Assembly: GCF_005503555.1 (NCBI RefSeq)
Contig: NZ_SCNG01000003.1
Location: forward strand, 124,001-188,000
Reading direction: 5' to 3'
DNA: 64,000 bases
Source of the DNA: Rudaea sp. 3F27F6
GTDB taxonomy: Bacteria; Pseudomonadota; Gammaproteobacteria; Xanthomonadales; Rhodanobacteraceae
The position numbers were made by a program, and so were the translations under genes. Below are positions 38,302-59,588 of this stretch, piece by piece. Each line of letters starts with the position of its first letter. Within the stretch, counting starts at the first letter, position 1. Below the pieces are notes generated by a model, which did not search any database, had not been told where the DNA came from, and saw only the letters and a program-made list of their open reading frames with translations.

Positions 38302-39774
38302 TCAGCTCTGACGCGGTTTGTAGAAAGCGTAGATCGCGAGCCCGACGACGAAGTAGCCGCCGATGATCGTCGCCGGAAAGACGTCGCCGTGCGCGGCGCG
38401 GATCAGAATGTCGATAAGCAGCGGCAGCGCCATCAGCGCGGCGAAGAGGATGCCGAGCACGGGCACGATGCCGATCCACCAGCCGCCGAGCATGATGCCG
38501 CCGAGCGGCACGCGGAACGGGCGCGGCCGTTCGGGCTCGACCGCGCGCAGACGCATCACCGCGGCGCAGACGATCGCGAACGCGAGCGCGGTGCCGAGGC
38601 TGATCAGATCACCGAGCACGGAAATCGGCATGAACGCCGCGAGCAGAGACATGACCAGGCCGACGTACAGCGTGCCGCGCCGTGGCGTGCGCGTTTTCGC
38701 GTCGATGCGCGCGAACACTTCCGGCAGCATGCGGTCGCGCGCCATCGCGTAGAAGACGCGGCTCTGGCCGTAGATCGAAGTCAGCAGCACCGACAGCAGG
38801 CCGATCACCGCCGCGCTCTTGATCGCGAGGCCGAGTGCGGGCAGGCGCATCGCGTCGACCGCGAGCGCGAGCGGATCGGCGACGCCGAGCTGGCGGTACG
38901 GCACGATCCCGGTCATCACCGCCGCGACCGCCATGTAGAGCAGGGTGCAGATGGTCAGCGTGGAGAAGATGCCGATCGGCAGATCGCGCTGCGGATTGCG
39001 CGCTTCGGCGGCGCTGGTCGATACGGTCTCGAAGCCGACATAGGCGAAAAAGATCGCCGAGGCGCCGCGCAGCACGCCGGGCCAGCCGAACTCGAAGTTG
39101 CTCTGCGCGGGCGGCACGAACGGAATGAGATTGCCCGGATCGACGAAGGCGACGCCGATCGCGGCAAACACGACGAGTGCGGCGATTTTCAGCAGGACGA
39201 CAGCGGTGTTGAACGCGACCGACTGCGACAGGCCGCGCATGAGCACGGCGGTCACCACGAGCATCGCGCCGGCGGCGAGCACGTTGACGCCGCCGCCGAA
39301 ACGCATCCGATATTCGTCGCCGACGCGTTCGAGATCGAACAGCGGCGTGGTCAGCGTGGCCGGCAGATGCAGGCCGAGCTGGTCGAGCAGGGCTGTGGCG
39401 TAGCTGGCGAAGCCGACCGCGACGGTCGCGGCGGCGATGCCGTATTCGAGCAGCAGGAGCCAGCCCGCGCACCAGGCGGCGAACCGGCCGAAAGTCAGCA
39501 GCGCGTAGGAATAGCTCGATCCCGACATCGGCATGGTCGCCGCCAGCTCGGCGTAGCAGAACGCGGTGAAGCCGCAGGCGATCGCCGCGATCACGAAAGA
39601 CAGCACCACGGCCGGCCCGGCGTGGAACGCGGCGGCCGATCCGGTCATGACGAAGATGCCTGCGCCGATCACCGAACCGATCCCGATCAGGGTGAGCTGA
39701 AGCGGGCCGAGGCTGCGCGCCAGTCCGTGTTCGGCGGCGTCGTCGGCCGCCAAGTTTTGAAATTTATCTTTCAT
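38302..39774 (-). CDS. APC-family amino acid permease (YhdG/CAT-like)
   Basis: A 490-residue inner-membrane permease with about 12-13 helices. The first helix has LIGIGSVIGAGIFVMTGSAA; also typical are CYAELAATMPMSGSSYSYALLTFGRFAAWCAGW, FFAYVGFETVSTSAAEARNPQRDLP and RVFYAMARDRMLP. It is divergent from the DgcA-type gene, with 52 bp between starts, and the proposed RpiR operator at 39758-39773 overlaps its start codon. I infer that it imports the amino acids or dipeptides released by the neighbouring enzymes. Confidence 0.88.
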   Translation of the reverse strand: MKDKFQNLAADDAAEHGLARSLGPLQLTLIGIGSVIGAGIFVMTGSAAAFHAGPAVVLSFVIAAIACGFTAFCYAELAATMPMSGSSYSYALLTFGRFAAWCAGWLLLLEYGIAAATVAVGFASYATALLDQLGLHLPATLTTPLFDLERVGDEYRMRFGGGVNVLAAGAMLVVTAVLMRGLSQSVAFNTAVVLLKIAALVVFAAIGVAFVDPGNLIPFVPPAQSNFEFGWPGVLRGASAIFFAYVGFETVSTSAAEARNPQRDLPIGIFSTLTICTLLYMAVAAVMTGIVPYRQLGVADPLALAVDAMRLPALGLAIKSAAVIGLLSVLLTSIYGQSRVFYAMARDRMLPEVFARIDAKTRTPRRGTLYVGLVMSLLAAFMPISVLGDLISLGTALAFAIVCAAVMRLRAVEPERPRPFRVPLGGIMLGGWWIGIVPVLGILFAALMALPLLIDILIRAAHGDVFPATIIGGYFVVGLAIYAFYKPRQS

Positions 39775-39786
39775 AATGTATGTTAT
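39757..39786 (+). promoter_or_regulatory. Predicted sigma-70 promoter of the dgcA gene
   Basis: TTGAAA (39757-39762), an 18-bp spacer and TGTTAT (39781-39786). Transcription would start near 39793, about 34 nt before the chosen start codon. The -35 box is part of one predicted operator, and the -10 box abuts a second. Confidence 0.5.
39758..39773 (+). promoter_or_regulatory. Predicted RpiR operator, site 1
   Basis: TGAAATTTATCTTTCA, an inverted repeat TGAAA-6-TTTCA. It overlaps the -35 box of the dgcA promoter and the start codon of the divergent permease. It shares 13 of 16 bases with the site at 40826. Confidence 0.6.
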
Positions 39787-39801
39787 GACATCTTTCTATC
39801 A
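39786..39801 (+). promoter_or_regulatory. Predicted RpiR operator, site 2
   Basis: TGACATCTTTCTATCA, 28 bp downstream of site 1 (start to start) and immediately after the predicted -10 box. It matches the RpiR-gene site at 13 of 16 positions. Confidence 0.5.
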
Positions 39802-39826
39802 TTCTTGTCCAGAGGCGGAAAACGCC

Positions 39827-40816
39827 ATGCGCACCGACATCCGGCACGAACGCTGGGAGCTGGCCGCTCCGTTCGTGATCGCGAGCGAAACTTATTACTA
39901 CGCCGACGTGATCGTGGCGACCTTGGAGCACGACGGTGCGGTCGGCCGCGGCGAATGCACGCCGACCAGTTTTTATAATGAGACGATCGAAGGCGTGCTC
40001 GCCACCACGCGCGCGCTCGCCGCGCGCCTCGCCGCGGGCGAGCCGTGGCAGCGCGTCCACGCCGACGCGCCGGCCGGTGCCGCGCGCAATGCGATCGATT
40101 GCGCCGTGTGGGATCTGCGCGCGAAGCAGGCGAACAAACGCGTCTGGGAACTCGCCGGCATCGCCGCGCCGCAGCCGGTGCGCACGGCGACGACGATCAG
40201 CATCGACAGCGCCGAACGCCAGGCCGAGCATGCGCGCGCGCTGGCCGCCGACGCGGGTGGCGCCGCGCTGATCAAGCTCAAGCTGGATGCCGCCGACGTG
40301 ATCGCGCGCGTCGAGGCAGTGCGCGTGGCCGCGCCTATGGCGACGTTGATCGTCGACGCGAACGCATCCTGGGACGCCGCCCTGCTCGACGCGGTGATGC
40401 CTGCGCTGGCGCGCGCGGACGTTGCGATGATCGAGCAGCCTCTGCCGGCGAACGCCGATGCGGCGCTGGCCGACCTGCGCCACCTCGTGCCGATCTGCGC
40501 GGACGAATCGGCGCACGTCAGCACCGACCTCGCCGCGCTGCGCGGACGCTACGACCTGGTCAACGTCAAGCTCGACAAGACCGGCGGTCTGACCGAAGCG
40601 CTGCGTATGGTCGCGCAGGCGCGCGAGCTCGGCTTCGGTCTCATGGTCGGTTGCATGGAAGGCACTTCGCTCGCGATGGCCCCGGCCATGCTGATAGCCG
40701 GCGCCGCGCGCTTCGCCGATCTCGACGGCCCGCTGCTGATCGGCCGCGACCGCGACGATGGATTGCGCTACGAACGCGGCATCGTCTCGCCGCCGTCCGC
40801 CGCCTTGTGGGGATAG
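39827..40816 (+). CDS. dgcA: DgcA-type N-acetyl-D-glutamate racemase / dipeptide epimerase
   Basis: A 329-residue enolase-superfamily enzyme. Catalytic KxK is K150-L-K152; Mg ligands are Asp177 (VDANASW), Glu203 (MIEQPLP) and Asp226 (CADES); the opposite-face Lys is in VKLDKTGG. This is the dipeptide-epimerase subgroup. Its relatives either epimerise L-Ala-D/L-Glu from peptidoglycan or, when encoded with a DUF1611 gene, racemise N-acetyl-D-glutamate (DgcA). The DUF1611 gene at 42390 favours the DgcA reading. I chose ATG 39827 because it gives the family N-terminus and leaves the operators outside the gene; ATG 39785 would place the -10 box in coding sequence. Confidence 0.82.
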   Translation: MRTDIRHERWELAAPFVIASETYYYADVIVATLEHDGAVGRGECTPTSFYNETIEGVLATTRALAARLAAGEPWQRVHADAPAGAARNAIDCAVWDLRAKQANKRVWELAGIAAPQPVRTATTISIDSAERQAEHARALAADAGGAALIKLKLDAADVIARVEAVRVAAPMATLIVDANASWDAALLDAVMPALARADVAMIEQPLPANADAALADLRHLVPICADESAHVSTDLAALRGRYDLVNVKLDKTGGLTEALRMVAQARELGFGLMVGCMEGTSLAMAPAMLIAGAARFADLDGPLLIGRDRDDGLRYERGIVSPPSAALWG

Positions 40817-40825
40817 AGGAAGTTG

Positions 40826-40841
40826 TGTTATTTTTCTTTCA
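40826..40841 (+). promoter_or_regulatory. Predicted RpiR operator, site 3
   Basis: TGTTATTTTTCTTTCA, 48 bp before the deacylase start and 10 bp after the dgcA stop. Among the closest to the consensus: 14 of 16 identical to the RpiR-gene site, 14 of 16 to the 50882 site and 13 of 16 to site 1. Confidence 0.65.
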
Positions 40842-40854
40842 TAAATATTAACAA

Positions 40855-40870
40855 TGAAATTTTTCTAACA
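40855..40870 (+). promoter_or_regulatory. Predicted RpiR operator, site 4
   Basis: TGAAATTTTTCTAACA, 29 bp after site 3 (start to start) and 19 bp before the deacylase start codon. It shares the N6 core TTTTTC with site 3. Confidence 0.5.
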
Positions 40871-40888
40871 TAAACGGATGGTGCCGTG

Positions 40889-42385
40889 ATGACTGGAAAG
40901 ATGCTTTTCGCTCTGTCGCTGTTGGTCAGCGCTTCCGCGTTCGCCGACGATTTCCTGATCCGCGACGCGCTGCTCGTCGACGGCACCGGTGCGCCGCCGC
41001 GTCGCGCGGACGTGCGCGTGGCGCACGACAAGATCGCCGCGATCGGAGAATTGAAACCGAATCCGGGCGAAGCCGTCGTGGATGCACACGGCCTCGCGCT
41101 TGCGCCAGGCTTTATCGACACGCACAGCCATCACGAAGACGGCCTTGACAAGAAACCCGACGCGATGCCCGTCGTCAGCCAGGGCGTGACCACGATCATC
41201 TCCGGTCAGGACGGCGGCTCCGAGATTCCGCTCGCCGATTTCTTCCGCAAGATCAAGGCCAAGCCGGCCGCGATCAACATCGCCTCGTACTCGGGGCACA
41301 ACTCGCTGCGCGACAAGGTGCTCGGCGAGGACTTCAAGCGCAAGGCGACGCCGGCCGAAGTCGAGAAGATGCGCCAACTGCTCGCCGCCGACATGCAGGC
41401 CGGCGCGCTCGGTCTCTCGACCGGGCTCGAATACGACCCGGGCATTTACTCGGACAAGTCCGAAGTGCTGACGCTCGCGCGCGAGGCGGCGAAGTACGGC
41501 GGGCGCTATATCAGCCATATGCGCAGCGAAGACCGCGAGCTGTGGGCGGCGCTCGACGAGATCGTCAACATCGGCCGCGTGGCGAAGCTGCCCGTGCAGG
41601 TCAGCCACGCCAAGCTCGGCATGACCGACTGGTGGGGCCAGGCCGATCGTTTCCTCGGCGTGCTCGACAAGGCGCGCGCCGAAGGCATCGACGCGACGCT
41701 CGACGTCTATCCGTATCCGAACTGGCAGAGCACGCTGACCGTGCTCTGGCCGAAGCGCGATTTCGAGAACCGCGAAACCGCGGAGTTCGTGCTCAAGCAT
41801 CTCGCGCCGGCCAACGGTTTATTGCTGTCGCGCTTCACGCCCGATCCGACATTGGTCGGCAAGACCGTGGCCGAGATCGCGCGCATGCGCGGCATCGACG
41901 AGCCCGCGGCGGCGATGGCGCTGATCCGCGAGAGTGAAACGAGCCACGGCGACATCGAAGTGATCGGCACGAGCATGGACGAGCGCGACATCGACAAGCT
42001 CATCGCCTGGCCGCACGCGAACATTTCTTCCGACGGCATGCTCAACGATCTGCATCCACGCGGCGCCGGTTCGTTCACCCGCGTGCTGCGCGTCTATGTG
42101 CGCGAGAAGAAGCTGCTGACCCTGGAGGAGGCGGTGCGCAAGATGAGTTCGCTCGCCGCCAAGCATATGGGCCTCGCCGACCGCGGCGAGATCCGCAACG
42201 GCGCCTACGCCGATCTCGTGTTGTTCGACCCGGCCACGGTGGCCGACCGCGCCACCACCAAGGAACCCGGCGCGCTGTCGGTCGGCGTGGCGCGCGTCTG
42301 GGTCAACGGCTCTCTGGTTTATCAAGACGGAAAAGCGACCGGTGCCCGTCCGGGCCGCGCGCTGCTCCGCGAAAAAGGACATTGA
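40889..42385 (+). CDS. Exported N-acyl-D-amino-acid deacylase (D-aminoacylase)
   Basis: A 498-residue amidohydrolase-superfamily enzyme that hydrolyses N-acyl-D-amino acids to free D-amino acids. The signal peptide ends near ASAFA (residue ~18), so it acts in the periplasm, unlike many cytosolic homologues. The metal-binding DTHSHHE motif follows GLALAPGFI; ISHMRSED and VSHAKLG carry further metal or substrate His residues. The C-terminus has the usual AKHMGLADRGEIRNGAYADLVLFDP. A GTG at 40886 directly precedes the ATG at 40889, and I use the ATG. The dgcN start is 4 bp after its stop, so they are one operon. Two predicted operators precede it. Confidence 0.88.
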   Translation: MTGKMLFALSLLVSASAFADDFLIRDALLVDGTGAPPRRADVRVAHDKIAAIGELKPNPGEAVVDAHGLALAPGFIDTHSHHEDGLDKKPDAMPVVSQGVTTIISGQDGGSEIPLADFFRKIKAKPAAINIASYSGHNSLRDKVLGEDFKRKATPAEVEKMRQLLAADMQAGALGLSTGLEYDPGIYSDKSEVLTLAREAAKYGGRYISHMRSEDRELWAALDEIVNIGRVAKLPVQVSHAKLGMTDWWGQADRFLGVLDKARAEGIDATLDVYPYPNWQSTLTVLWPKRDFENRETAEFVLKHLAPANGLLLSRFTPDPTLVGKTVAEIARMRGIDEPAAAMALIRESETSHGDIEVIGTSMDERDIDKLIAWPHANISSDGMLNDLHPRGAGSFTRVLRVYVREKKLLTLEEAVRKMSSLAAKHMGLADRGEIRNGAYADLVLFDPATVADRATTKEPGALSVGVARVWVNGSLVYQDGKATGARPGRALLREKGH

Positions 42386-42389
42386 ACGC

Positions 42390-43424
42390 ATGCAAATCCA
42401 AGGACCTTATCTGCTGTTCCTCGGCGACACGCCGCGCCCGCTCGACGCAAAGACTGCGAGCGGCATTCTCGACTGGCGTCCCGAATTGTGCGGCGGCCAA
42501 TACCGGCTCAGCAAGGACGCGGTCGATCTCGGCCTGCGCGACTACACGCCGGCCGAAGCGGCCGCGGCCGGAATCCGCACGATGGTGATCGGCGTCGCGC
42601 CGTTCGGCGGCGCGATCGAGCCGGAGTGGGTCGAAGCGATCCTCGCCGCGGTCCGCGCCGGGCTCGACGTCGCCAGCGGCATGCACACGCGCCTCGGCGA
42701 CATTGCGGCGATCCGCGACGCCGCACGCGAATCGGGCGCGCAGTTGTTCGACGTGCGCCACGGCAACGGCACCTTCGACGTTGCCTCGGGACGCAAGCGC
42801 ACGGGGCGCCGCGTGCTCACGGTCGGCGTCGATTGTGCGGTCGGCAAGAAGTACGCCGCGCTCGCGATCCATCGCGCGCTCGTGAAGCGCGGGATCGCCG
42901 CCGACTTCCGTGCGACCGGCCAGACCGGCATTCTGATCGCCGGCGGCGGCATCGCCATCGACGCGACGGTTTGCGACTTCACCGCGGGCGCGGCCGAGGC
43001 GCTGTCGCCTGGCAACGCGCCCGAACACTGGGATGTGATCGAAGGGCAGGGCTCGCTGTTCCATCCGGCTTATGCGGGCGTGAGCTTGGCGCTGCTGCAC
43101 GGCTCGCAGCCCGACGCGCTCGTGGTCTGCCACGATCCGCGCCGCACGCATATCGACGGTTATCCCGACTATCCGCTGCCGACACTCGCCGCCTGCATCG
43201 CCTTGAACGAGCAGGTCGCGCGCCTGACCAATGCGCATGCGCGCGCCGTCGCGATCGCCATCAACACGCATCGCATGAGCGATGCCGAACGCGCGCGCGC
43301 GCTGGCCGCCGTGCGCAGTGAAACCGGCCTTGTCGCCTTCGATCCGATCGCGACCGGCGCCGACGCCGTGGTCGACGCGCTGATTCCGCAGCGCGAGGCC
43401 GTACTTTCCGAAGCCACTCCCTGA
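42390..43424 (+). CDS. dgcN: DgcN-type DUF1611 protein (D-glutamate N-acetyltransferase)
   Basis: A 344-residue cytosolic protein of the DUF1611 family. A P-loop-like motif is visible (LTVGVDCAVGKKYAAL), with EGQGSLFHPAYAGVSLALLHGS and VVCHDPRRTHIDGYPDYPLP. In marine Pseudoalteromonas the family member DgcN acetylates D-glutamate, and DgcA then racemises the product; I transfer that role because both genes are present. AAGGA sits about 10 bp before ATG 42390. The neighbouring deacylase could release acyl groups from N-acyl-D-residues taken up from outside. Confidence 0.8.
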   Translation: MQIQGPYLLFLGDTPRPLDAKTASGILDWRPELCGGQYRLSKDAVDLGLRDYTPAEAAAAGIRTMVIGVAPFGGAIEPEWVEAILAAVRAGLDVASGMHTRLGDIAAIRDAARESGAQLFDVRHGNGTFDVASGRKRTGRRVLTVGVDCAVGKKYAALAIHRALVKRGIAADFRATGQTGILIAGGGIAIDATVCDFTAGAAEALSPGNAPEHWDVIEGQGSLFHPAYAGVSLALLHGSQPDALVVCHDPRRTHIDGYPDYPLPTLAACIALNEQVARLTNAHARAVAIAINTHRMSDAERARALAAVRSETGLVAFDPIATGADAVVDALIPQREAVLSEATP

Positions 43425-43436
43425 AGAGGAAAAACC

Positions 43437-45065
43437 ATGCGCTGCTCCGCCGCTGCTTTTGCTTCGACATTGTTGACCTTCGCCGCTTCCGCACACGCCG
43501 CCGCCGATCCGGCCGCGGCGTCGGCGAAGATCTTCACCGAACTGACCACGGGCAAGCCGCAGCCCGGTTGCGCCGCGAGCGTGATGCGCGACGGCCGCGT
43601 GCTCTGGGCCGGGGGCTTCGGCTACGCCGACCTGGCGACGAAGCGCAAGATCACGCCCGATACGCTGTTCAATATCGCTTCGATCTCGAAACAGTTCACT
43701 GCGTTCGCAATCCTGCAGCTCGAAGCGGCGGGCAAGTTGTCGCTCGACGATTCGATCCGCAAGTTCCTGCCCGAACTGCCCGAATATGCGCAGCCGGTGA
43801 CGATCCGCCACCTGCTTCATCACACCGGCGGTCTGCGCGACTACGACCTGCTCGCCAACATCAAGGGTATCGACTATGCCGACAAGCTCAGTGAAGACGA
43901 TACGCTCAAACTGATGGCGCGCCAGCGCGGCACCGATTTCGTGCCGGGCAGCGAACACGTCTACAGCAATACCGGTTATGTCCTGCTCGCCGTGGTCGTC
44001 GAACGCGCGTCGAAACAGACGATGCGCGACTATGCCGCCGAACACATCTTCGGCCCGCTCGGCATGCGCGAGACGAGTTACGTCGATCACTATCCGGTCG
44101 ACCTGCCCGCGCTCGCGCGCGGCTATAGGGACGACGGCAAAGGCGGCTATGCGATCGACGAATCCGCCTGGGAGCCGACCGGCGACGGCCAGGTGCATAC
44201 CACGGTGCGCGAGCTAGCGCTGTGGGAGCAGAACTTCGCTACCGGCCGCGTCGGCGGCCGCGCCTTGGTCGAAAAGATGAGCGAGACCGGCGTGCTCAAC
44301 AACGGCGACAAGCTCAACTACGCGATGGGCGTCAACGTCGGTCACTACCGCGGATTGCGCTCGATCGAGCACTCGGGCGGCTGGGCCGGCTATCACGGTT
44401 ACTTGATGCGTTTTCCCGATCAGGGCGTCGGCGTCGCCGTACTGTGCAACGCGCCGAAGGCGGAGTCGCACGAATACACGACGAAGCTCGCCGACCTCTG
44501 GCTCGGCGACAAACTCGGCCCGGTCAATCCGACCGCCGACACGCCGCCGAACGAGAACGTCAAACGTCACGCCGGCGTCGCCGCATCCGCCGTGCAGCCG
44601 GGCATCTACGCGAACGACGTCGGCGGGGTGCTCGAAGTGCGCCGCGGCAAGTCGGGGCTGGAAATCCGTTCGTCCGAGGCCAAGGGCGTGATCGGCGCGG
44701 GGCAGGGCAACATCTACCCGCTGAGCGGCGGTGAGGAGATGGCCTACGTCGCTTTTCCTGCGAACGACCGCGTCGTCCTCGATATCGATCCGCACGTCTA
44801 CAGTCTGCTCAAGCCGTGGCAGCCGAAATCGCTGCAGCCTTACGTCGGCAGCTATTTCAGCGACGACGCCGACATCGGCTTCACGGTGACGGGGGGCAAG
44901 GAAGGGCTCACGGCCAAGCTCGGTACGGAAACGACACGGCTGCGTCCGGTCGCCGAGAACAAGTTCCGCGCCGGGCATGCTGGCTTGATCGAGTTCCGCG
45001 CCGACGGCAGCGCCGTTCTGCTCACGCCCGATTTGCGTGGGGTCGTTTTCAGCAAAACGCATTGA
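43437..45065 (+). CDS. Exported serine hydrolase (beta-lactamase/D-aminopeptidase-like)
   Basis: A 542-residue periplasmic protein. The signal peptide ends near SAHA (residue ~21). Penicillin-binding-fold motifs: S82-I-S-K85, Y176-S-N178 and EHSGGWAGY as the third motif. A C-terminal lipocalin-like beta domain (about 390-542) resembles the extra domains of D-aminopeptidase DAP-type enzymes, suggesting hydrolysis of D-residue-containing peptides. It is 12 bp after dgcN, with GAGGAAAAA as ribosome-binding site, so it belongs to the deacylase-dgcN operon. A 12-bp hairpin follows. Confidence 0.87.
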   Translation: MRCSAAAFASTLLTFAASAHAAADPAAASAKIFTELTTGKPQPGCAASVMRDGRVLWAGGFGYADLATKRKITPDTLFNIASISKQFTAFAILQLEAAGKLSLDDSIRKFLPELPEYAQPVTIRHLLHHTGGLRDYDLLANIKGIDYADKLSEDDTLKLMARQRGTDFVPGSEHVYSNTGYVLLAVVVERASKQTMRDYAAEHIFGPLGMRETSYVDHYPVDLPALARGYRDDGKGGYAIDESAWEPTGDGQVHTTVRELALWEQNFATGRVGGRALVEKMSETGVLNNGDKLNYAMGVNVGHYRGLRSIEHSGGWAGYHGYLMRFPDQGVGVAVLCNAPKAESHEYTTKLADLWLGDKLGPVNPTADTPPNENVKRHAGVAASAVQPGIYANDVGGVLEVRRGKSGLEIRSSEAKGVIGAGQGNIYPLSGGEEMAYVAFPANDRVVLDIDPHVYSLLKPWQPKSLQPYVGSYFSDDADIGFTVTGGKEGLTAKLGTETTRLRPVAENKFRAGHAGLIEFRADGSAVLLTPDLRGVVFSKTH

Positions 45066-45150: not shown

Positions 45151-46896
45151 TTAGACCTTGCGAAAGGTCAGCCCGGAGTAAAAAAGCTGGCTGCCGTCGT
45201 CGCTGAAGCGCACGACTTCGCCGGTGGTCTGCGGCCCGAGTCCGCCCGTCACGGCATGCGTCGCGCTGCCGAAGATGAGCGGGTACGCAAATTTGCCGGT
45301 GTTGTAGACCAGTTGCAGGCGCGGCTGGTGCGTGTCGAACGCGTTGATCTCGGCGGCGACGATGCGTTCGTTGCCCTGGATCTGGTAGCCGAACAGCTCG
45401 TAGCGTCCGATCCGTTCGCGCCATGCGACTGCGGTCGCGGAGTCCGGCTGACGATAGCCTTGCTGCCACACGCCGTCCGCGTCGATACGGAACAGCACGT
45501 GGTAAGGGCCGGCGTCGGCGAAGCGGTAGCGCACGCCGTCGAGGTCGGACTGGGTCGTCGTCGCCGCGGTCGCAAAGGGCTGGAAACTGCCGTCGGACAG
45601 ACTCTTCAGACGCAACGTTTCGTCGCCGTCCACGAGCAGCAGATCGTTGCCGTCGCGCGAGACGAGAGCGAAGTCGCGCTTGCGCGCGTAGGCGCCGGCG
45701 CATTGTTTGAGCATCTCGGCCGACATCACGACGGGCGTTGCCTGTTTGTCGAGCGCGGGCAGTCGTGGCACCGGACGGATGTCCTCCACTTTGAGACCGT
45801 GGCTTTTCAATTTGTCGAACGCATATTCGTTGGCAAGACGGTCGCCGCCGACGGTGTTGACCAGAATGACCGCCGCGTCGCGCGTCTGCGGGAACAGCAG
45901 CAGTGCCGCATTGGCGAAGCCCGTGCTGCCGGCGTGGTACATGGCGAACGCAGTGGAGTTGCGGAAGGTGAACCAGCCGAGACCCTTGCGGTTGCTCTCG
46001 ACGAGGATGTTCTCGTTCGACGGGGTGAACATCAGGCGCACGCTGTCGGCGTCGATCACGGCGTTCGATTTGCCGTGCCACGCATCCATCATCGCGATCG
46101 CGTAGCGCGAGAGGTCTTCCACATTGGAATACACGCCGCCGGCGGGCTGATCGCGCAATTCGAACGCAGGTGCGGTGCGGCCGTCGGCATAGTAGAGCAC
46201 CGACAGCGGCGACAGGGCCGCGTCGCCGGCGAAACCGGAGTGCGACATGTTCAAAGGCGCGAGGACGTGCCGCCTCAGGTAATCCGGGTAGTCCTCGCCG
46301 CTGACGTTGCGAATCGCGACGCCGAGCAGGCTGTAGCCGATGTTGGAATACAGACCGATCGTCTGCGGCCACGCCGCCAGCTCGGTGTCGTTGAGCAGAT
46401 CGACGACGTCGGTATAGCGCGCCTTCTCCAGCTCCGTGTACTTGAACACGTCGGTCGGCAGGCCCGAGGTGTGGTTCATCAGCGAACGCACCGTCACCTG
46501 CTGCAGATCGGCGCCGCGCGTGCCGATGCGCAGCTGCGGCACGTAGCGCGTGATCGGCACGTCGATGTCGAGCAACCCGCGCCGCTGCAACTGCATGATC
46601 GCGAGGGAAGTGAACGTCTTCGTGACCGAGCCTATGCCGACCACTGTGGCCGGCGACATGGCCGCGCCCGCGTTTCGGTCGGCCAAGCCGAAGCCTTCGG
46701 CCCAGGCCAGTCTGCCGTTTTCGACGAGAGCGGCGCTCGCGCCGACCAGCTTGCCGCGCGCCATGCGCTCGGCGACGAATCCGCGCAAAGCCGCGCTGCG
46801 ATCGGCGGCGATGTCCGCTCTGTGATTGCTGCAAGCGCCGAGAACGGCCGCCGCCGCGGCTGCCACGGAGCTATGGATGAACGTACGGCGATGCAT
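45151..46896 (-). CDS. Serine hydrolase lipoprotein (beta-lactamase family)
   Basis: A 581-residue predicted lipoprotein: the N-terminus MHRRTFIHSS plus an Ala-rich helix ends in lipobox VLGAC with Cys22. Active-site motifs are S90-V-T-K93, Y183-S-N185 and YHAGSTGFA. The C-terminal 200 residues form a beta-rich extension as in D-aminopeptidase-like family members. It lies 95 bp downstream of the RpiR gene on the same strand, convergent with the other serine hydrolase. Together the two probably trim D-residue peptides outside or in the periplasm (inference). Confidence 0.87.
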   Translation of the reverse strand: MHRRTFIHSSVAAAAAAVLGACSNHRADIAADRSAALRGFVAERMARGKLVGASAALVENGRLAWAEGFGLADRNAGAAMSPATVVGIGSVTKTFTSLAIMQLQRRGLLDIDVPITRYVPQLRIGTRGADLQQVTVRSLMNHTSGLPTDVFKYTELEKARYTDVVDLLNDTELAAWPQTIGLYSNIGYSLLGVAIRNVSGEDYPDYLRRHVLAPLNMSHSGFAGDAALSPLSVLYYADGRTAPAFELRDQPAGGVYSNVEDLSRYAIAMMDAWHGKSNAVIDADSVRLMFTPSNENILVESNRKGLGWFTFRNSTAFAMYHAGSTGFANAALLLFPQTRDAAVILVNTVGGDRLANEYAFDKLKSHGLKVEDIRPVPRLPALDKQATPVVMSAEMLKQCAGAYARKRDFALVSRDGNDLLLVDGDETLRLKSLSDGSFQPFATAATTTQSDLDGVRYRFADAGPYHVLFRIDADGVWQQGYRQPDSATAVAWRERIGRYELFGYQIQGNERIVAAEINAFDTHQPRLQLVYNTGKFAYPLIFGSATHAVTGGLGPQTTGEVVRFSDDGSQLFYSGLTFRKV

Positions 46897-46991: not shown

Positions 46992-47894
46992 TCAGGAGCC
47001 CGGCTCTTTGCGCCCGGGTTGGCCGATGTGGCCGACGAATTCCTGATACAGCTCGGACAATTGCGCGAGCCGCTTCTCGACGCCGCTGCCGAGTTCGAGC
47101 ACAACGCCGTTGGCGAGCAGGCTCAGCGCGGCGAAGATCGGCAGCATCGTGTCCCAGAACAGGCCGCTCTCGGTCGGCAGGGCGAGTACGTGCGAAGTGT
47201 ATTTGCGCGCCCAGTGACAGTATTTGTCGGTGACGATGACCAGGTTCAAGCCGAGATCGTGGCAATGCCGCGCGAGAGTTTGCGCCTGGCGCGAATAGCG
47301 CCGCGTCTCGACGATCACCACGCAGTCGTTCTTGGTGCCGTCGAGCAGGATCTCGGAGAAATGGCCCGCGGAAAGATCGGTGACGCGCACGCCGGCACGC
47401 ACGTACTGCAGCAGGTGAGCGAAATGGCCGGCGAGTCCGCGCTCGGTCTGGAAGCCGACCACATGCAGGTTCGCCGCGTGCGCGAGACGCTCGACGATGG
47501 CCTGCCATTCGGGCGTGCCGGCGAGACGGTAGACTTCGACGAGCGCGGCGATGTTGAGGTCGAGATCGCGCTGCAGCGCCGGCTGGCCCGAGCCGGCCTG
47601 GAGCACCGAACGCAGGCCGTCGCCGATCGGCCACGGCGCGACGGCGACGTCGAACTTGAACGCGTTCTTGAGTTCGCGGAAGTTGCGGTAGCCGAGGCGG
47701 CGGCAGAAGCGGCCTACCGTCACCGGGCTGATCGCGAGCTTGGCGGCGAGCGAATTCGCCGTCTCGAACGGGATGCCCTGGCGATTGGTCAGGAGAAAGT
47801 TCGCGATCAGGCGTTCGGACTCGGTGAACTGGTCCATTTCGCTTTCGATCTGGGCGAAGAGTCTCTGGTCCGCCTTGGGTTTTTGCCGCGGCAC
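46992..47894 (-). CDS. MurR/RpiR-family transcriptional regulator
   Basis: A 300-residue regulator. The N-terminal RpiR helix-turn-helix domain is residues ~5-82 (FTESERLIANFLLTNRQGIPFETANSLAAKLAISPVTVGRFCRRLGYRNFRELK); a SIS sugar/phosphate-isomerase-like ligand domain covers ~120-270. Such proteins sense amino-sugar or related metabolites, MurR being the N-acetylmuramate example. Start is GTG 47894, with AAGGA 7 bp away. A 16-bp predicted operator lies 29 bp upstream, suggesting autoregulation, and seven similar sites control neighbouring genes. The ligand is unknown; a D-glutamate or muropeptide derivative would fit the locus. Confidence 0.88.
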   Translation of the reverse strand: MPRQKPKADQRLFAQIESEMDQFTESERLIANFLLTNRQGIPFETANSLAAKLAISPVTVGRFCRRLGYRNFRELKNAFKFDVAVAPWPIGDGLRSVLQAGSGQPALQRDLDLNIAALVEVYRLAGTPEWQAIVERLAHAANLHVVGFQTERGLAGHFAHLLQYVRAGVRVTDLSAGHFSEILLDGTKNDCVVIVETRRYSRQAQTLARHCHDLGLNLVIVTDKYCHWARKYTSHVLALPTESGLFWDTMLPIFAALSLLANGVVLELGSGVEKRLAQLSELYQEFVGHIGQPGRKEPGS

Positions 47895-47922: not shown

Positions 47923-47938
47923 TGACAGAAAGATAACA
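47923..47938 (-). promoter_or_regulatory. Predicted RpiR operator, site 5 (autoregulatory)
   Basis: On the minus strand it reads TGTTATCTTTCTGTCA, 29 bp upstream of the RpiR GTG start. It differs from the 40826 site at only two positions. A single site, without a tandem partner. Confidence 0.6.
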
Positions 47939-50817: not shown

Positions 50818-50881
50818 TGCCCTCTCCCAGTTTTTTTGTAGAAAGCCGATGCCTGACTCGTGCTGGAAGCGCGGCGGCAAA

Positions 50882-50897
50882 TGTTATTTTAATTTCA
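50882..50897 (+). promoter_or_regulatory. Predicted RpiR operator, site 6
   Basis: TGTTATTTTAATTTCA, immediately downstream of the -10 box of the receptor 1 promoter and 65 bp before its start codon. It matches the 40826 site at 14 of 16 positions. Confidence 0.6.
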
Positions 50898-50926
50898 ACA
50901 ATATTCAAATGTCAGTTTATTGTCAA
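50898..50926 (-). promoter_or_regulatory. Predicted sigma-70 promoter of TonB receptor 1
   Basis: On the minus strand: TTGACA (50926-50921), a 17-bp spacer and TATTGT (50903-50898). Transcription would start near 50890, inside operator site 6, about 75 nt before the GTG start. Confidence 0.65.
50910..50925 (+). promoter_or_regulatory. Predicted RpiR operator, site 7
   Basis: TGTCAGTTTATTGTCA, 28 bp from site 6 and covering five of six bases of the -35 hexamer. It matches the 59573 site at 13 of 16 positions. Confidence 0.5.
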
Positions 50927-52392: not shown

Positions 52393-52977
52393 ATGCGCTA
52401 TTCCGTCGAACACAAGCAACAGACCCGCGACAGGCTGCTTTCCGCCGCCGCCGCGGCGATCCGCGCACGCGGCCCGGACCGTGTGGCCGTGGCCGGCGTC
52501 ATGGCCAAGGCGGGCCTGACTCACGGCGGTTTCTACGCGCATTTCGCCTCGAAGGACGCGCTGATCGGCGCGGCCATCGACCGCATGTTCGAGGAAAGCC
52601 GCGCGCGCATCCGCGAGGAAACGCAAGGGCTGTCCCCACACGATGGCCTGGTCGCTTATATCGACTTCTATCTTTCCGCACGCCATCGCGACGCACGCGG
52701 CGCCGGCTGCGCGCTCGCGGCCTTGGCCGGCGACCTGCCGCGCCTGAGCCTCGCCCTACGCCAGCGCTTCGCCGCGGGCATGCAGCGCATGCAGCAGATT
52801 CTTGCCGGCACCTTGCGCCTGATCGGCCGCGCCGATGCCGAAGCGCTGGCCGATTCGATGCTCGCCGAGCTGGTCGGTGCGCTTGCGATCGCGCGCGCCG
52901 AGCCGGACAAGGCGCGCTCCGATTCGATCCTGGCGCATTCGCGCCAGGCCCTGAAATTTCGCTTTCAACTGGATTGA
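52393..52977 (+). CDS. TetR/AcrR-family transcriptional regulator
   Basis: A 194-residue repressor. The N-terminal helix-turn-helix is about residues 28-58 (VAVAGVMAKAGLTHGGFYAHFASKDAL), the GFYAHF variant typical of the NemR/AcuR-like branch. The C-terminal all-helical domain carries a TetR_C-like ligand pocket (LSARHRDARGAGCALAALAGDLPR). It is divergent from the thiolase and 5 bp upstream of a thioesterase, so it probably controls acyl-CoA metabolism through the palindrome at 52360-52375. The effector may be an acyl-CoA or electrophile (inference). Confidence 0.88.
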   Translation: MRYSVEHKQQTRDRLLSAAAAAIRARGPDRVAVAGVMAKAGLTHGGFYAHFASKDALIGAAIDRMFEESRARIREETQGLSPHDGLVAYIDFYLSARHRDARGAGCALAALAGDLPRLSLALRQRFAAGMQRMQQILAGTLRLIGRADAEALADSMLAELVGALAIARAEPDKARSDSILAHSRQALKFRFQLD

Positions 52978-54827: not shown

Positions 54828-54844
54828 TGCATATCGGAACAGGC

Positions 54845-56425
54845 ATGACGAACGCGTCCGAAGATCGGCTGTGGCTCAAGGCACAGCGCTATCTCGCGTC
54901 GAACCAGTTGACCGCCGCACGCATAACCTGCGAGTCGCTGCTGCAGCGTGCGCCTGCGCACCTCGATGCGCGGCTGCTGCTGGCCGGCCTTCTGCTGTCC
55001 GAGCACCGCGTGCGCGAAACCGCGGCGCAGTTGCTGCAGGCGGCGCAGACCCGCCCGTTGGCGCCGCAGATGGCGAGCAAGATCGCGCTCGCGCTGTTGC
55101 GCGTCGGCGAAGTCGTCGCCGCGCGCGAATGCGTTGCACAGGCGCGGTCGGTGCCTACGTTGTCGGGCGCCGATTGCGCTGCGCTCGCGCATGCGCTGCA
55201 GACCACCGGCGAGCACGAGGGCGCGCTGGCGCTGATCGAGCGTGCACGCGCACTCGGTTCCGACAACGCCGACCTGCGCTATTTCCACGCCATCCAACTG
55301 ATCTTCAACGGCAAGCTCGACAGTGCCGCGACGCAGCTGGAAAGCTGCCTGCGCATACAGCCCGGCTTCGGTCGCGCAACCTTGTCGCGTGCGCGCCTGC
55401 GCAAGGTGACTTCGGCCACTCAGCATCTCGACGATATTCGCCGGCGTTTCGGTGTGGTCGAAAAAGGCACGGTCGAACACGCGGCGCTCGAGTTTGCCCA
55501 GTTCAAGGAACTCGACGATCTCGGCGAATATGCCGACGCGTGGAAAGCGCTCGAACGCGGCAACGCGATCATGCAGGCGCGCGTGCCGTACGACATCGCG
55601 CAGCACGATGCGCTTATCGAACGCCTGATCGAATTGTCGACGCCCGAATACATTCACGCGGAAGCGCAGTCGGCGCGCGAAAGTGCGCGCGCGAACGGGC
55701 CGCAGCCGATCTTCATCATCGGCATGCCGCGCAGCGGCACGACCTTGCTCGAACGCATCCTCGGCAATCATTCGCAAGTCGCATCGGCCGGCGAACTCGA
55801 CGACTTCGCGCATCAATTGCGCTGGCAGGCCGATCACTACGAGAACACGATGCTGGACGCGGTGCTGCTTCAGCGCATGCCCGGCCTCGACTACGCCAAT
55901 ATCGGCGCGCGCTATCTCGAACAGACGCAGTGGCGCGCACAGAGCAAGCCGTTCTTCGTCGACAAACTACCCGCGAACTATTTTCTCGCCGGCGCGATCC
56001 ATCGCGCGTTGCCACACGCGCGCATCCTGAATATGTCGCGCGATCCGATGGACGTGTGCTTCTCCAACTTCAAGGCGTTGTTCGGCGATGCCTGCGCCTA
56101 CAGCTACCATCTGCCTGCGCTCGCCGCTCATTACAGCCACTACGCACGCGTGATGCGGCACTGGCATCAAGTCATGCCGGGACGGATATTGGACGTGGCT
56201 TACGCTGATCTGGTCGCCGCGCCCGAAGCTATGGCACGACGCGTCCTCGATCACTGTGGCCTGCCGTTCGAGGAAGGCTGCATCGACATTTCGCGCAACA
56301 GCGCGCCGGTCGCGACTTTGAGCACGGCGCAGGTACGCGAGGGCATCCACGATCGCGCGAAAGGCGAGTGGCGGCGCTATGAAGCGTGGTTCGAGCCTCC
56401 GGGTATTGCGTCAGGGCAAGCCTGA
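54845..56425 (+). CDS. Cytosolic TPR-containing sulfotransferase 1
   Basis: A 526-residue protein without a signal peptide. About 240 residues of TPR-like helices (LLQRAPAHLDARLLLAGLLL; ALQTTGEHEGALALIERARALG) precede a PAPS-dependent sulfotransferase domain. The 5'-phosphosulfate loop is FIIGMPRSGTTLLERIL (residues ~289-305), FFVDKLPANYFLAGAI follows, and the 3'-phosphate-binding region is NMSRDPMDVCFSNFK. TPR-sulfotransferases probably modify protein or peptide acceptors held by the TPR; the acceptor is unknown. Start ATG 54845 has only a weak ribosome-binding site (GGAACAGG). It is convergent with TonB receptor 2, a pairing repeated at 59798-64000. Confidence 0.85.
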   Translation: MTNASEDRLWLKAQRYLASNQLTAARITCESLLQRAPAHLDARLLLAGLLLSEHRVRETAAQLLQAAQTRPLAPQMASKIALALLRVGEVVAARECVAQARSVPTLSGADCAALAHALQTTGEHEGALALIERARALGSDNADLRYFHAIQLIFNGKLDSAATQLESCLRIQPGFGRATLSRARLRKVTSATQHLDDIRRRFGVVEKGTVEHAALEFAQFKELDDLGEYADAWKALERGNAIMQARVPYDIAQHDALIERLIELSTPEYIHAEAQSARESARANGPQPIFIIGMPRSGTTLLERILGNHSQVASAGELDDFAHQLRWQADHYENTMLDAVLLQRMPGLDYANIGARYLEQTQWRAQSKPFFVDKLPANYFLAGAIHRALPHARILNMSRDPMDVCFSNFKALFGDACAYSYHLPALAAHYSHYARVMRHWHQVMPGRILDVAYADLVAAPEAMARRVLDHCGLPFEEGCIDISRNSAPVATLSTAQVREGIHDRAKGEWRRYEAWFEPPGIASGQA

Positions 56426-56428
56426 AAG

Positions 56429-56457: not shown

Positions 56458-56465
56458 AATTGCGT

Positions 56466-59300
56466 TTACGAACCGCTTCTGCCGAATTTCCAGTCGAATT
56501 CCAGCCACATTTGCCGGCCGTAGGGGTTGTAGCTGCCGGCGTTGTAGTAGGGATAAACCGTCCAGGAGGAATCTTTCGGCGGCATCGAGTTCTTGATGTT
56601 GTTGACGATGAAGCTCACGCGCATATCGTCGTTGACGCTGTAGTTGATGCTGCCGTTATAGAGGATCCATGGCGCGACGCTGCCCGAACCGGGCGTCGCA
56701 TAGCCGGTCGAGTTGCTCGCGGCGATGTAGTTGGGCGTCTTGCCATAGCGCGTACCGAACAGCGTGGTTGAAAACGGGCCGATGTCCCAGGTCACCGACG
56801 CATTCGCGATGGTCTTGAACTGCGGGCCGCTTTGCTCGCTGAAGGCATAGTAGGGGCTGCGCAGCATGTCGATTTCCGGGTCGCCGGGATACTGCTGCAG
56901 GCGATGCTCCAAAGTCACGTTGTACTGCGCGGCGAATGCGAGGCTGCCGTAGCGAGCGAGATCGAGTTTGTAGTCCAGCGACGCGATGATGCCGGACACC
57001 TTCTCCTTCGCGATATTGATCGGCAGTACGATGACCTGCTGTAGCGCATTCGGGTTGGCGCTGTCTGGCGGGTTGCGCGTTATTTGCGCGAGCGTGGTCA
57101 CGCAAGTCGGAGAATTGATGTCGATCTGTCCGGTACGGCAGGCTGCTTCGATTTGCAGGAGTCCGTTCATGCTTTGCAACTGGACTTCGTTGGAAATATT
57201 GACGTTGTAGTAGTCGGCCTTGATGTCGAAGTCAGAGTTGGGCGACCAGACCACGCCGTAGCCCCAGGACTTGGCCGTAATCGATTGCAGCTTGCGGTTT
57301 CCGTAGTGCTCGGCAAACACCGCCAGCCCCGCGTACTTGCACTGATCGATGGGCAACCCCGATTGACTAGGATCGGTCGCGCAGCGGTAGTAATCGTTGA
57401 CGTCGTAGTTGTAAAAGCCGCTCTTCCCGCCGAAGACATAAGCCATGTCCGGCGCGCGGAAGGCGGTGCCGTAGCTGGCACGCAGCAGCCATGCGTCGGT
57501 CGGGCGGAATTCCAGGCCCAGCTTGTAAGTCGGGCGATCATCGCTGCTGGCGCCGTTGTTCTTGTACTGATCGTAACGGGCGGAAAGATTGGCCGTCAGC
57601 ATGCTTGTGATCGGGACACGCAACTCGCCGGAGTAGGCCCAGTTGCTGCGCGTGCCGCTACCCGACGTTCCGGTCAGTCCCCAGAAATCGCCCGCGACGA
57701 CGCGCGGATCGTTGGGATTGTTCCAAGCCTGGCTGCCGATCTGGGCGACGCCGGCGAAGCCGACGGAGCCGGCCGGCAGGCTGAATAGGTCGGTGTTGGT
57801 GACCTGCAAATTGAGATTCTGCGTCCAGGCGACGTTTTTGCTGCGGATCGTGCCGTTGATGCTGGCGTATTGAGCGGGCGTGAGCGGCTTGTAGAAGTTG
57901 TTTACGTTGGGCGCATAAACCGGGTAGCCGCTTTGAGTGCCTTGTTTCGGGCCAAGGAACAACTGCTCAAACAAGGCATCGGCTTTCGCTCCGAGGAGCC
58001 ACGGGGATTTTTCCCAGACGTTGTCCTGTGAGCGCGCGTAGAACAGGTCGTAGTCCCAGTTCTTTCCGAAACTGCCGCGGATCCCGGCCCAGGCCGTGTA
58101 CTGGCGGCTCAGCTGCGTGTCCAGGCTCGGACCCAATCCCCCCATTTCTTCCGGAGAGAAGAGGTGCTGGAAGAGCTCGAAATTTCCCGTATTCGAGTTG
58201 AAGAACGCATTGTTGTTGTTCGTCGCCCACGTACCTGCACCGCTCGAGAAAGTCACCGAACCGACGCTGTACAGCATGTTGGCATAGGCCTGCGTATCGT
58301 CGTCGAGCCGATACTTCAGATTGATATAAGCCGTACCTGAGCGGTTCTTGTTCAAAATGGTGCCGTAGCCGGCGGCGTACTTGCTGCCGCAGTAGTACCC
58401 CAGTTTCTGGCGGTATTCGTAGTCCGTAGTGCCGCCCCATAGATTGGAGAGCGAGCTGCAGGTGGCTTGACCGGGATCGACATAGGTTCCCGAGCCGTAG
58501 TTGGGGCCGTAGTTGATGTAGAGAAAGTCGCGCTGGCCGTAGCGGCCGTTGGGGTCCGGGTTCGAATTGGTGGACTTGGTGATGTCGCGGTTGTAGCCCC
58601 AGATCGGCTTTTCATTGTTGAGCTGGAGGCCGAAGGTCAGATCGAGATTGCCCCAGGTATGCCCGCCGAGGAATTCCAGGCGCTGGTTTTGTCCGCCGCC
58701 GCTGCTATAGCTACCGACGCGGGCATTCAGCTCGAAGCCGTCGATGCGGTCCTTCAGGATGATGTTGACTACGCCCGCAATCGCGCTGGAGCCGTAAACC
58801 GCGGACTGGTTGCCCGGCAGAATATCGATGTGATCGACCATGCCGGCGGGAATATTGGTCAGGTCGACGAAATTGCTCGATCCGTTGAACAGGAACGGGA
58901 AATCGGCCATCGGATGGCCGTTGATCATGATCAGAGTGAAGCCCGGGTCGAGTCCGAGCAGGCTGATTTCCTGGGCGCCCGGCGTGAAGCCGCCGCCCGA
59001 CGACTGCCCGTCTTGAACTGCGCCCGTGGCGAGAGGCATCGAACGAAGCGCCTGATAGACGTTGGCGAAGCCCTGCTTCTCCAACTGCGCGCCGGTGATC
59101 TTGAGGGTTGCGGACGCCGTTTCGATCTGCGCCTGCGGAATCAAAGAGCCGGTGACCACGACGCCTTTCAGTTCGGTGGTCTCCCTTTTCTTGCCGCTGT
59201 CCGAAGTGGACTGGTCTGCGTTCTGCGCCAACGCGCCGTTCGTTGTCAGGCTTGCGCACAGGCCCATGATGATCGAAGACACCAACAAGCGTTGCTTCAT
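56466..59300 (-). CDS. TonB-dependent outer-membrane receptor 2
   Basis: A 944-residue paralogue of receptor 1, close along the whole length. The signal peptide ends near NGALAQ; TTELKGVVVTGSLIPQAQIETAS is the TonB-box region. The plug has NVYQALRSMPLATGAVQDGQ and GLDPGFTLIMINGHPMADFP; the barrel ends WLEFDWKFGRSGS. Start ATG 59300 (MKQRLLVSS) is preceded by GGAGAGGGCA, which fixes the start of receptor 1 by analogy; an upstream ATG at 59345 is not supported. A predicted RpiR operator lies 273 bp upstream, across a structured leader. It is convergent with sulfotransferase 1. Cargo unknown, presumably related to that of receptor 1. Confidence 0.9.
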   Translation of the reverse strand: MKQRLLVSSIIMGLCASLTTNGALAQNADQSTSDSGKKRETTELKGVVVTGSLIPQAQIETASATLKITGAQLEKQGFANVYQALRSMPLATGAVQDGQSSGGGFTPGAQEISLLGLDPGFTLIMINGHPMADFPFLFNGSSNFVDLTNIPAGMVDHIDILPGNQSAVYGSSAIAGVVNIILKDRIDGFELNARVGSYSSGGGQNQRLEFLGGHTWGNLDLTFGLQLNNEKPIWGYNRDITKSTNSNPDPNGRYGQRDFLYINYGPNYGSGTYVDPGQATCSSLSNLWGGTTDYEYRQKLGYYCGSKYAAGYGTILNKNRSGTAYINLKYRLDDDTQAYANMLYSVGSVTFSSGAGTWATNNNNAFFNSNTGNFELFQHLFSPEEMGGLGPSLDTQLSRQYTAWAGIRGSFGKNWDYDLFYARSQDNVWEKSPWLLGAKADALFEQLFLGPKQGTQSGYPVYAPNVNNFYKPLTPAQYASINGTIRSKNVAWTQNLNLQVTNTDLFSLPAGSVGFAGVAQIGSQAWNNPNDPRVVAGDFWGLTGTSGSGTRSNWAYSGELRVPITSMLTANLSARYDQYKNNGASSDDRPTYKLGLEFRPTDAWLLRASYGTAFRAPDMAYVFGGKSGFYNYDVNDYYRCATDPSQSGLPIDQCKYAGLAVFAEHYGNRKLQSITAKSWGYGVVWSPNSDFDIKADYYNVNISNEVQLQSMNGLLQIEAACRTGQIDINSPTCVTTLAQITRNPPDSANPNALQQVIVLPINIAKEKVSGIIASLDYKLDLARYGSLAFAAQYNVTLEHRLQQYPGDPEIDMLRSPYYAFSEQSGPQFKTIANASVTWDIGPFSTTLFGTRYGKTPNYIAASNSTGYATPGSGSVAPWILYNGSINYSVNDDMRVSFIVNNIKNSMPPKDSSWTVYPYYNAGSYNPYGRQMWLEFDWKFGRSGS

Positions 59301-59393
59301 TGCCCTCTCCATGCAGTAGGAAAAATTTTTCGGAACACGATGCACGCCCGATCGCTAGCGGTCGGGTAATCGGGACGAAATGGACGAGAAAGA

Positions 59394-59412
59394 CCCGATC
59401 AAAATGATCGGG
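59394..59412 (-). promoter_or_regulatory. Stem-loop in the predicted receptor 2 leader
   Basis: Perfect 8-bp stem CCCGATCA / TGATCGGG with a 3-base loop; on the minus strand it is followed by TCTTTCTCG. Related CCCGAT/ATCGGG pieces lie on both sides (59347-59373, 59416-59432), so alternative pairings are possible. It could be an attenuator or a weak terminator. Confidence 0.35.
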
Positions 59413-59572
59413 CAGGCCCGATGAAAGGCCCGAGCACAGCCGGATGATGCGTCGCGACGAACGTTTTTGTTCAACGCCGAAAAAGACATCGTGAGCGCAA
59501 CCTCAGCGTCTACGTGCCACCCGCTCCACCGAATGGCGCGTCGTACCCCCGATCGACGCACGATAATGAAAT

Positions 59573-59588
59573 TGTTATTTTCTTGTCA
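59573..59588 (+). promoter_or_regulatory. Predicted RpiR operator, site 8
   Basis: TGTTATTTTCTTGTCA, in the divergent region between receptor 2 and sulfotransferase 2. On the minus strand it contributes TGACA to a TTGACA -35 box, as at receptor 1. It has no clear tandem partner. Confidence 0.55.

Follow-up and report, generated by a model that had tools for sequence, protein, structure and literature searches.

The locus and its candidate operators

The 64,000-nt window analysed here (Rudaea sp. 3F27F6, contig NZ_SCNG01000003.1, positions 124,001–188,000) encodes a regulator of the RpiR family surrounded by dgcA and dgcN genes, a permease, a deacylase, serine hydrolases and TonB-dependent receptors. 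A 16-bp near-palindrome recurs eight times at this locus, and comparison with other genomes makes it highly probable that these sites are the operators of the locus-encoded RpiR protein. The proposed function of the locus, scavenging of D-amino acids and peptides, rests on its gene content.

The eight near-palindromes described in the initial annotation of the window are borne out, including their invariant columns and pair spacings. Seven positions (T1, G2, A5, T8, T12, C15 and A16) are the same in all eight sites, and T6 and T14 are present in 7/8. The fixed core of the palindrome is TGNNA-N6-TNNCA, with the half-site TGWHA. Three tandem pairs are formed, with start-to-start spacings of 28, 29 and 28 bp. 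The sites, together with one weaker candidate, are the following (ORF, open reading frame).

39758..39773, plus strand: operator 1 of the divergent permease/dgcA pair; covers codons 1–6 of the listed permease ORF and also overlaps a −35-like box (TTGAAA) for dgcA
39786..39801, plus strand: second operator of the permease/dgcA pair, starting 28 bp after the first
40826..40841, plus strand: operator 1 before the deacylase-dgcN operon; an equivalent pair is found in one of eight orthologous loci (L043)
40855..40870, plus strand: operator 2 before the deacylase-dgcN operon, 29 bp from operator 1
47923..47938, minus strand: lone operator in the gap between TonB receptor 1 and rpiR; the start codon of rpiR is 28 bases away
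50882..50897, plus strand: proximal member of the pair before TonB receptor 1; of the two promoter matches on the minus strand, one has a TAAAAT −10-like box that it overlaps
50910..50925, plus strand: distal member of the pair before TonB receptor 1; in both promoter matches on the minus strand, the −35-like box is overlapped by this operator
59573..59588, plus strand: single operator before TonB receptor 2; overlaps the TTGACA of a minus-strand promoter match (10/12)
52952..52967, plus strand: weaker candidate site within the 3' end of a TetR gene; a thioesterase-type start codon follows after 15 bases

All eight members of the set thus stand, but the total does not, because the locus holds nine: the additional site, at window coordinate 64513 (C10:188513), lies just beyond the end of the window, before TonB receptor 3. 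Its 16-mer is identical to that at 59573 and the two leaders are 77.5% alike over 276 nt, indicative of a duplicated leader, so that the ninth site is not independent. The candidate at 52952 may be a chance match.

The invariants-only pattern TGNNANNTNNNTNNCA, which like the stricter pattern TGWHAKYTWHHTDWCA was fitted to the eight sites themselves, has 11 matches in the window, compared with a mean of 1.8 and a maximum of 6 in 100 dinucleotide shuffles. When matrices are built with one site left out, the omitted site ranks first among all non-training positions of the window in seven of the eight cases and second in the remaining one (59573, behind 52952).

The genes of the locus, identified with Pfam and NCBIfam and hence given as family assignments, are listed below.

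46992..47894, minus strand: rpiR, a regulator of 300 amino acids with HTH_6 and SIS domains; SIS loop RRYSR at residues 198–202
38302..39774, minus strand: amino-acid permease, APC family
39827..40816, plus strand: dgcA, N-acetyl-D-Glu racemase / L-Ala-D/L-Glu epimerase family (NCBIfam NF042940, 422.6 bits, cut-off 400)
40886..42385, plus strand: amidohydrolase-family (D-aminoacylase-like) deacylase, starting at GTG 40886 or ATG 40889
42342..43424 (ORF coordinates), plus strand: dgcN (DUF1611), N-acetyltransferase-like (Pfam PF07755/PF17396)
43437..45065, plus strand: serine hydrolase (beta-lactamase/D-aminopeptidase fold) that follows dgcN on its strand
45151..46896, minus strand: second serine hydrolase with this fold, following rpiR on its strand
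47992..50880 (ORF coordinates), minus strand: TonB-dependent receptor 1
56466..59345 (ORF coordinates), minus strand: TonB-dependent receptor 2, a paralogue of 1 and 3
61460..63982 (ORF coordinates), minus strand: TonB-dependent receptor 3; the protein begins past 63982 and its own site is outside the window

The RpiR protein scores above the cut-off for both Pfam domains (HTH_6, 48.8 bits; SIS, 31.3 bits), and its top Foldseek matches are RpiR proteins. The dgcA ORF is open from 39776, and its start is inferred at ATG 39827; on extension to residues 1–3, four of six dgcA orthologues of the genus have stops inside the aligned stretch. The dgcN start is probably internal to the listed ORF, and the product covers the whole of NCBIfam model NF041892 with 466 bits, under the cut-off of 480. 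The second serine hydrolase is possibly co-transcribed with rpiR.

Distribution of the motif in the genome

The strict pattern TGWHAKYTWHHTDWCA has 11 matches in the 5,704,709-bp genome, namely the eight window sites, the ninth site at C10:188513 and two off-locus matches, compared with a single match for the reversed control; nine of the 11 fall at the RpiR/dgc locus. Both off-locus matches (contig C8; L001 at 1501 and L002 at 1501) resemble Pho boxes. One lies before a gene for a PBP-like protein, which from its appearance we take to be PstS, and the second is flanked by a TonB receptor and a porin. A crowd of equally good matches at unrelated promoters, which the initial annotation had suggested looking for, is not seen: the 5.7 Mb contain only these two Pho-box-like matches outside the locus. 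With one mismatch allowed, there is no clear excess that would indicate a wider regulon in this genome, with 25 off-locus rows (2 exact and 23 one-mismatch, one place being counted on both strands) vs 19 for the reversed control. Judged by this motif, the putative regulon is local.

Conservation in orthologous and distant loci of the family

The matrix built from the window sites alone was applied to the surroundings of RpiR homologues (up to 20 kb each) in other genomes of the family, with sites counted anywhere in the locus rather than only in promoters. The orthologous set comprises all 8 loci with a 71–75% identical RpiR, the distant set 31 of the 41 listed matches at 33–42% identity, and the control 20 regions from the genomes of both groups. 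At 13 bits, a threshold picked after the scores were seen, sites are present in 8/8 orthologous and 26/31 distant loci and in 0/20 controls; the respective counts are 8/8, 27/31 and 2/20 at 12 bits, and 8/8, 31/31 and 8/20 at 10 bits. The 26 distant loci contain 51 sites, compared with at most 23 loci and 31 sites for any of 150 palindromic matrices with permuted columns, a procedure that preserves composition and symmetry. The same permuted matrices reach at most 7/8 orthologous loci, with means of 7.2/31 distant and 1.7/8 orthologous loci.

Conservation at orthologous loci, the other check proposed at the outset, is found most clearly in front of dgcA. A pair of sites is present there in 8/8 orthologous loci, with both members at 13 bits or above in seven and a partner of 12.2 bits in the eighth. 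Two more named Rhodanobacter loci (L066 and L133), outside the eight, also have the dgcA pair (17.6–18.7 and 12.2 bits). The divergent permease is seen in 6/8 orthologous loci. Within the genus, rpiR and a dgcA of at least 70% identity co-occur in the same 7 of 16 genomes. The loci of other dgcA relatives (39–56% identical) contain no 13-bit site (0/13, best 11.7 bits) vs 7/7 dgcA loci of the rpiR cluster; the 13 loci are short (2.0–4.0 kb), three of them belong to the genome of the window itself, and some are from genomes with rpiR elsewhere.

Comparable regulons are seen in two loci from more distant gammaproteobacteria. In L059, a pair of sites is followed by a TonB receptor, a serine hydrolase, a dgcA-like gene (380.7 bits, under the NF042940 cut-off), a POT peptide symporter and rpiR, all on one strand. 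In L109, from a member of the Steroidobacteraceae, there is an independent multi-site regulon, with sites at 352, 4341, 5960, 9965 and 11542. One site lies at rpiR, others precede a serine hydrolase, dgcN and dgcA, and another separates an S9 peptidase from a gene of the D-serine-dehydratase/alanine-racemase type. This repetition of the gene content in more distant gammaproteobacteria supports a role in peptide and D-amino-acid scavenging.

The motif follows rpiR beyond dgc loci

A scan of named genomes yielded the best 80 of 152 RpiR relatives. Nine are Rhodanobacter-type loci, seven of which repeat DNA that is already in the counts above; the remaining 71, hereafter further loci, are mostly from alphaproteobacteria (Rhodobacteraceae, Bosea and others). 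A dgcA- or dgcN-like match is found nearby in only 16 of the 71, in 14 cases at no more than 25–34% identity. In the two further loci that were examined, L076 (Tabrizicola) and L103 (Bosea), rpiR is followed by an Opp/Dpp-type peptide ABC transporter and an M81 (MlrC-type) metallopeptidase, which likely represents a peptide-scavenging locus of its own in alphaproteobacteria.

A window-type site of at least 13 bits lies within 190 bp at the rpiR start, as extrapolated from alignment positions, in 50 of the 71 further loci. In 28 offset windows taken as background, 0.9% of the further loci have a site on average and 8.7% at most. None of 400 permuted matrices reaches 50/71 (mean 6.7, maximum 32), and sets of shuffled promoters contain at most 9 with a site.

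The strongest evidence comes from the reverse test. Expectation maximisation (EM) on 64 of the 71 further promoters, with the window sites not supplied and with a width of 16 and palindromy imposed, converges on the palindrome TGAAAGATATCTTTCA, with a log likelihood of 338 (120 starts) vs 11–14 in shuffled sets (40 starts). Seven promoters, mostly Bosea near-duplicates, were omitted beforehand (L094, L103, L104, L109, L116, L118 and L123). When TGAAAGATATCTTTCA is brought back to the 64-kb window, its top eight matches are seven of the window sites and the candidate at 52952, with 59573 ranking 13th. The loci are related and unevenly sampled, with many from Bosea and Rhodobacteraceae among the 71, and their counts do not represent independent events.

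Because rpiR and the motif persist together while the gene context changes, RpiR is the economical choice of binder. The initial proposal that the locus-encoded RpiR is the obvious binder is supported in this way, as the motif accompanies rpiR into genomes that mostly lack dgc-like genes.

Pair spacing, promoter overlap and mode of regulation

Partner sites of at least 6 bits are found at a distance of 28 bp from the best site in 8/8 orthologous and 16/26 distant loci. In the further loci, the distance is 29 bp, with such a partner in 34/48 (the spacing profile covers 48 of the 50 positives, L080 and L109 being left out).

Four promoter-like matches were found in three scanned regions of the window (39757–39784, plus strand; 50926–50898, 50915–50886 and 59589–59560, minus strand). 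The −35-like box overlaps an operator in all four, which suggests repression; such an arrangement favours, but does not prove, that the operators block RNA polymerase.

The most likely mechanism runs as follows. The helix-turn-helix (HTH) domain of an RpiR dimer would recognise the 16-bp palindrome, and two dimers or one tetramer would fill the sites 28–29 bp apart at the core promoter. Occupancy would then block the promoters of permease/dgcA, of deacylase-dgcN-peptidase, of rpiR and of the TonB receptors, with self-regulation via the site at 47923 near the rpiR start. Repression would be relieved once the SIS domain binds a metabolite that arises from the uptake of D-amino acids or peptides. 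This fuller reading, in which the sites are operators of RpiR and also mediate repression, is likely; two points lower the confidence in it, the −10-like box being overlapped in only one of the four promoter matches and the nearest named RpiR protein being reported as an activator.

Several observations weigh against RpiR operators of this kind, besides the late choice of the 13-bit threshold. Sites of 13 bits are missing from 5 of the 31 distant loci and, where sought, from 21 of the 71 further loci. The matrix is AT-rich, and part of its signal in GC-rich genomes is therefore promoter composition; on average, permuted matrices match about 7 of the 31 distant loci. Spacing is less clear in the distant loci, where a second peak of partners appears at 17 bp (14/26) and where, among all matches, 11 bp is the commonest spacing (16) vs 28 bp (14). 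The 17- and 11-bp spacings stem from a TGACA-like match between the members of the pair that coincides with a TTGACA box, which means that motif and promoter overlap are not fully independent; TTGAC or GTCAA is present near or over the best site in 25/26 distant and 42/48 further loci, and in only 2/8 orthologous loci. In the window, the −10-like box is covered by an operator only in the match at 50915–50886, and the scanned regions contain no promoter-like match at the deacylase pair, at the rpiR site or for the permease. The window matrix also gives 15.1 bits at TGGAATAAAAATTCCA and 6.0 bits at TGCAATACGAATTGCA beside another RpiR gene of the same genome (L013); the 16-bp geometry, and perhaps the spacing too, may be general to RpiR proteins, with the half-site giving specificity.

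Among the proposed targets, the pair before dgcA is general and the others are not. The deacylase pair occurs in 1/8 orthologous loci, a site before rpiR in 0/8, and a receptor site, weak at 12.2 bits, in one of the 7 loci whose stretch includes a receptor; the receptors in those 7 loci are only 34–46% identical to those of the window. The initial assignment of operators to permease/dgcA, deacylase-dgcN, rpiR and receptors alike accordingly holds across relatives for the first of these. The dgcA pair may be the core of the regulon, with self-regulation and receptor control as features of this genome. Self-regulation as a conserved feature of dgc loci was rejected on its absence from all eight close relatives, though a site at rpiR is frequent in the distant ones.

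Other explanations concern either the action of RpiR or the ownership of the sites. An activator or dual regulator that binds the same sites is improbable, yet it has precedents: NanR of S. pneumoniae, an RpiR protein, is described as an activator whose effector leaves DNA affinity unchanged (PMC12713135), and the paper on SapR (PMC9884982), whose family model is the closest named one (158 bits against a cut-off of 500), calls it an activator in its title. In three of the four promoter matches, the −10-like box falls either between the operators or beyond them, which speaks for this alternative. The overlap of the −35-like box in all four matches, joined by that of the −10-like box at 50915–50886, argues for repression instead, as does the MurR tetramer proposed for E. 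coli, which sits over −35 and −10 and is described as repressing (PMC12713135).

The Pho box consists of TGTCA-N6-TGTCA direct repeats, 11 bp apart, and has the same 16-bp span as the sites considered here. Ownership of the sites by another regulator, above all PhoB, is nevertheless very unlikely: the two off-locus strict matches are Pho-box-like, and several window sites end in CTGTCA or CTTTCA, but the sites form a palindrome rather than a direct repeat (G2 in 8/8 vs G13 in 3/8; C15 in 8/8 vs C4 in 2/8) and the motif tracks rpiR into other genomes. PhoB was rejected as the owner on this symmetry. Hardly any weight falls on the remaining explanation, that AT-rich promoters in GC-rich genomes, combined with duplication of TonB-receptor leaders, produce the recurrence as an artefact. 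The site at 59573 and its copy at 64513 do represent one duplicated leader, the three receptors are paralogues, and permuted matrices match some loci (up to 23/31 and 32/71); the observed counts are above those of every permuted matrix and shuffled promoter set, the partners peak at 28 or 29 bp, and the same palindrome was discovered in other genomes without the window sites.

The RpiR protein and its putative effector

The core of the recognition helix, TVGR, is invariant in 16 aligned proteins. The SIS domain differs from those that bind phosphosugars. In NanR, the phosphate is held by Ser179, Ser181 and Thr184 (PMC12713135). In the alignment to RccR chains, the S-x-S-G-x-S loop becomes [DE]-x-R-R-Y-S in the window clade, and the Ser/Thr loop typical of phosphosugar binding is absent. 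Residues R198, R199 and Y200 are kept in 8, 8 and 8 of the 8 orthologous, in 31, 31 and 31 of the 31 distant and in 71, 70 and 71 of the 71 further homologues, and R202 in 8/8, 23/31 and 63/71, respectively. The predicted structure (mean pLDDT 79) places the loop between strand 191–195 and helix 202–214. A similar WRY loop is present in the solved SIS domain 3sho (titled RpiR), so the variant is not unique to the window clade. By its domains and fold, the window protein is still a member of the RpiR family despite the altered loop.

Because the phosphate-binding loop is replaced by RRYxR, the effector is probably something other than a phosphosugar, a reasonable inference from the alignment. 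More speculatively, and with the balance rather against it, there could be a widespread RRY-type RpiR subfamily whose RRYxR pocket senses an acidic amino-acid or peptide metabolite (e.g. N-acetyl-D-Glu or a D-Glu-containing peptide) and that governs, via the 28–29-bp operator pair, how alpha- and gammaproteobacteria take up and break down D-amino-acid peptides.

The analysis turns a motif read by hand into a testable regulon with a named proposed binder and an operator that can be traced through many genomes. It offers a regulatory handle on the scavenging of D-glutamate and D-amino-acid peptides, the control of which is little known. As the same type of regulator lies beside peptide transporters, mostly without dgc-like genes, the effector can be narrowed down by comparison of gene content.

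Other features of the receptor region

The three paralogous TonB receptors lie in series (47992–50880, 56466–59345 and 61460–63982, all on the minus strand). The leader of receptor 2 may be about 215 nt or longer (59345–59560, minus strand) and contains a terminator-like hairpin at 59413–59393, with four such hairpins in the region vs 1.0 in shuffles; putative attenuation in this leader is possible. No Rfam match to a known structured RNA is found anywhere in the window. A TPR-sulfotransferase gene (59798–61372, plus strand) lies between the receptors, and repeats at 55472–55827 vs 60431–60768, about 4.95 kb upstream, point to a second copy of it.

Comparison with known systems

No operator for a dgc locus or for this type of RpiR was found among the open-access PMC titles and starts of abstracts listed; RegPrecise and subscription papers are outside this scope, and a published prediction may exist there. 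SapR (NCBIfam NF046014) is the best-scoring named RpiR model, with 158 bits far under its cut-off of 500, and differs in that it regulates a surface attachment protein in Burkholderia; the words consensus and palindrome are absent from the main text of its paper (PMC9884982).

A comparison within the genome is offered by an IolR-type paralogue of RpiR (L013; sites at 2226 and 2255). Beside it, TGGAATAAAAATTCCA is followed 29 bp on by the weaker palindrome TGCAATACGAATTGCA, the same 16-bp geometry as in the window. The half-site and the targets are different, the paralogue is 21% identical to the window RpiR, and its SIS loop is SFPPYGKET, with no RRY. The adjoining genes are, presumably, of the inositol type, judging by eye.

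For the DgcN-DgcA pathway of D-glutamate metabolism, a dedicated regulator, DgcR, has reportedly been described. The window locus holds a dgcA that scores over the NCBIfam cut-off and a dgcN that scores just under it, but has an RpiR-type regulator and adds a deacylase, peptidases and TonB receptors.

The best structural match of the window protein is Pseudomonas RccR (8k3b), with a template modelling (TM) score of about 0.53–0.56. The RccR pseudo-palindromes TGTAGT/ACTACA, of 15 and 28 bp, likewise start with TG and end with CA (PMC5489143). RccR and HexR differ in their half-site, in their role in central carbon metabolism and in their ligand, 2-keto-3-deoxy-6-phosphogluconate (KDPG), and the structures 8ju9 and 8k3b retain the SxSGxS loop, unlike the window RpiR.

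E. coli MurR has the same RpiR fold with HTH and SIS domains, Foldseek matching 7en7 and 7en5 to the SIS part, and a similarly peptidoglycan-linked role. Its proposed tetramer bridges two adjacent sites over −35 and −10 that extend over 47 bp (PMC12713135), vs 44–45 bp in the window. The two differ in that MurR senses a phosphosugar, N-acetylmuramic acid 6-phosphate (MurNAc-6-P), whereas the window protein is without the Ser/Thr phosphate loop and its putative targets are amino-acid and peptide genes. RpiR regulons are a known kind of system, to which this locus possibly adds a new class of effector.

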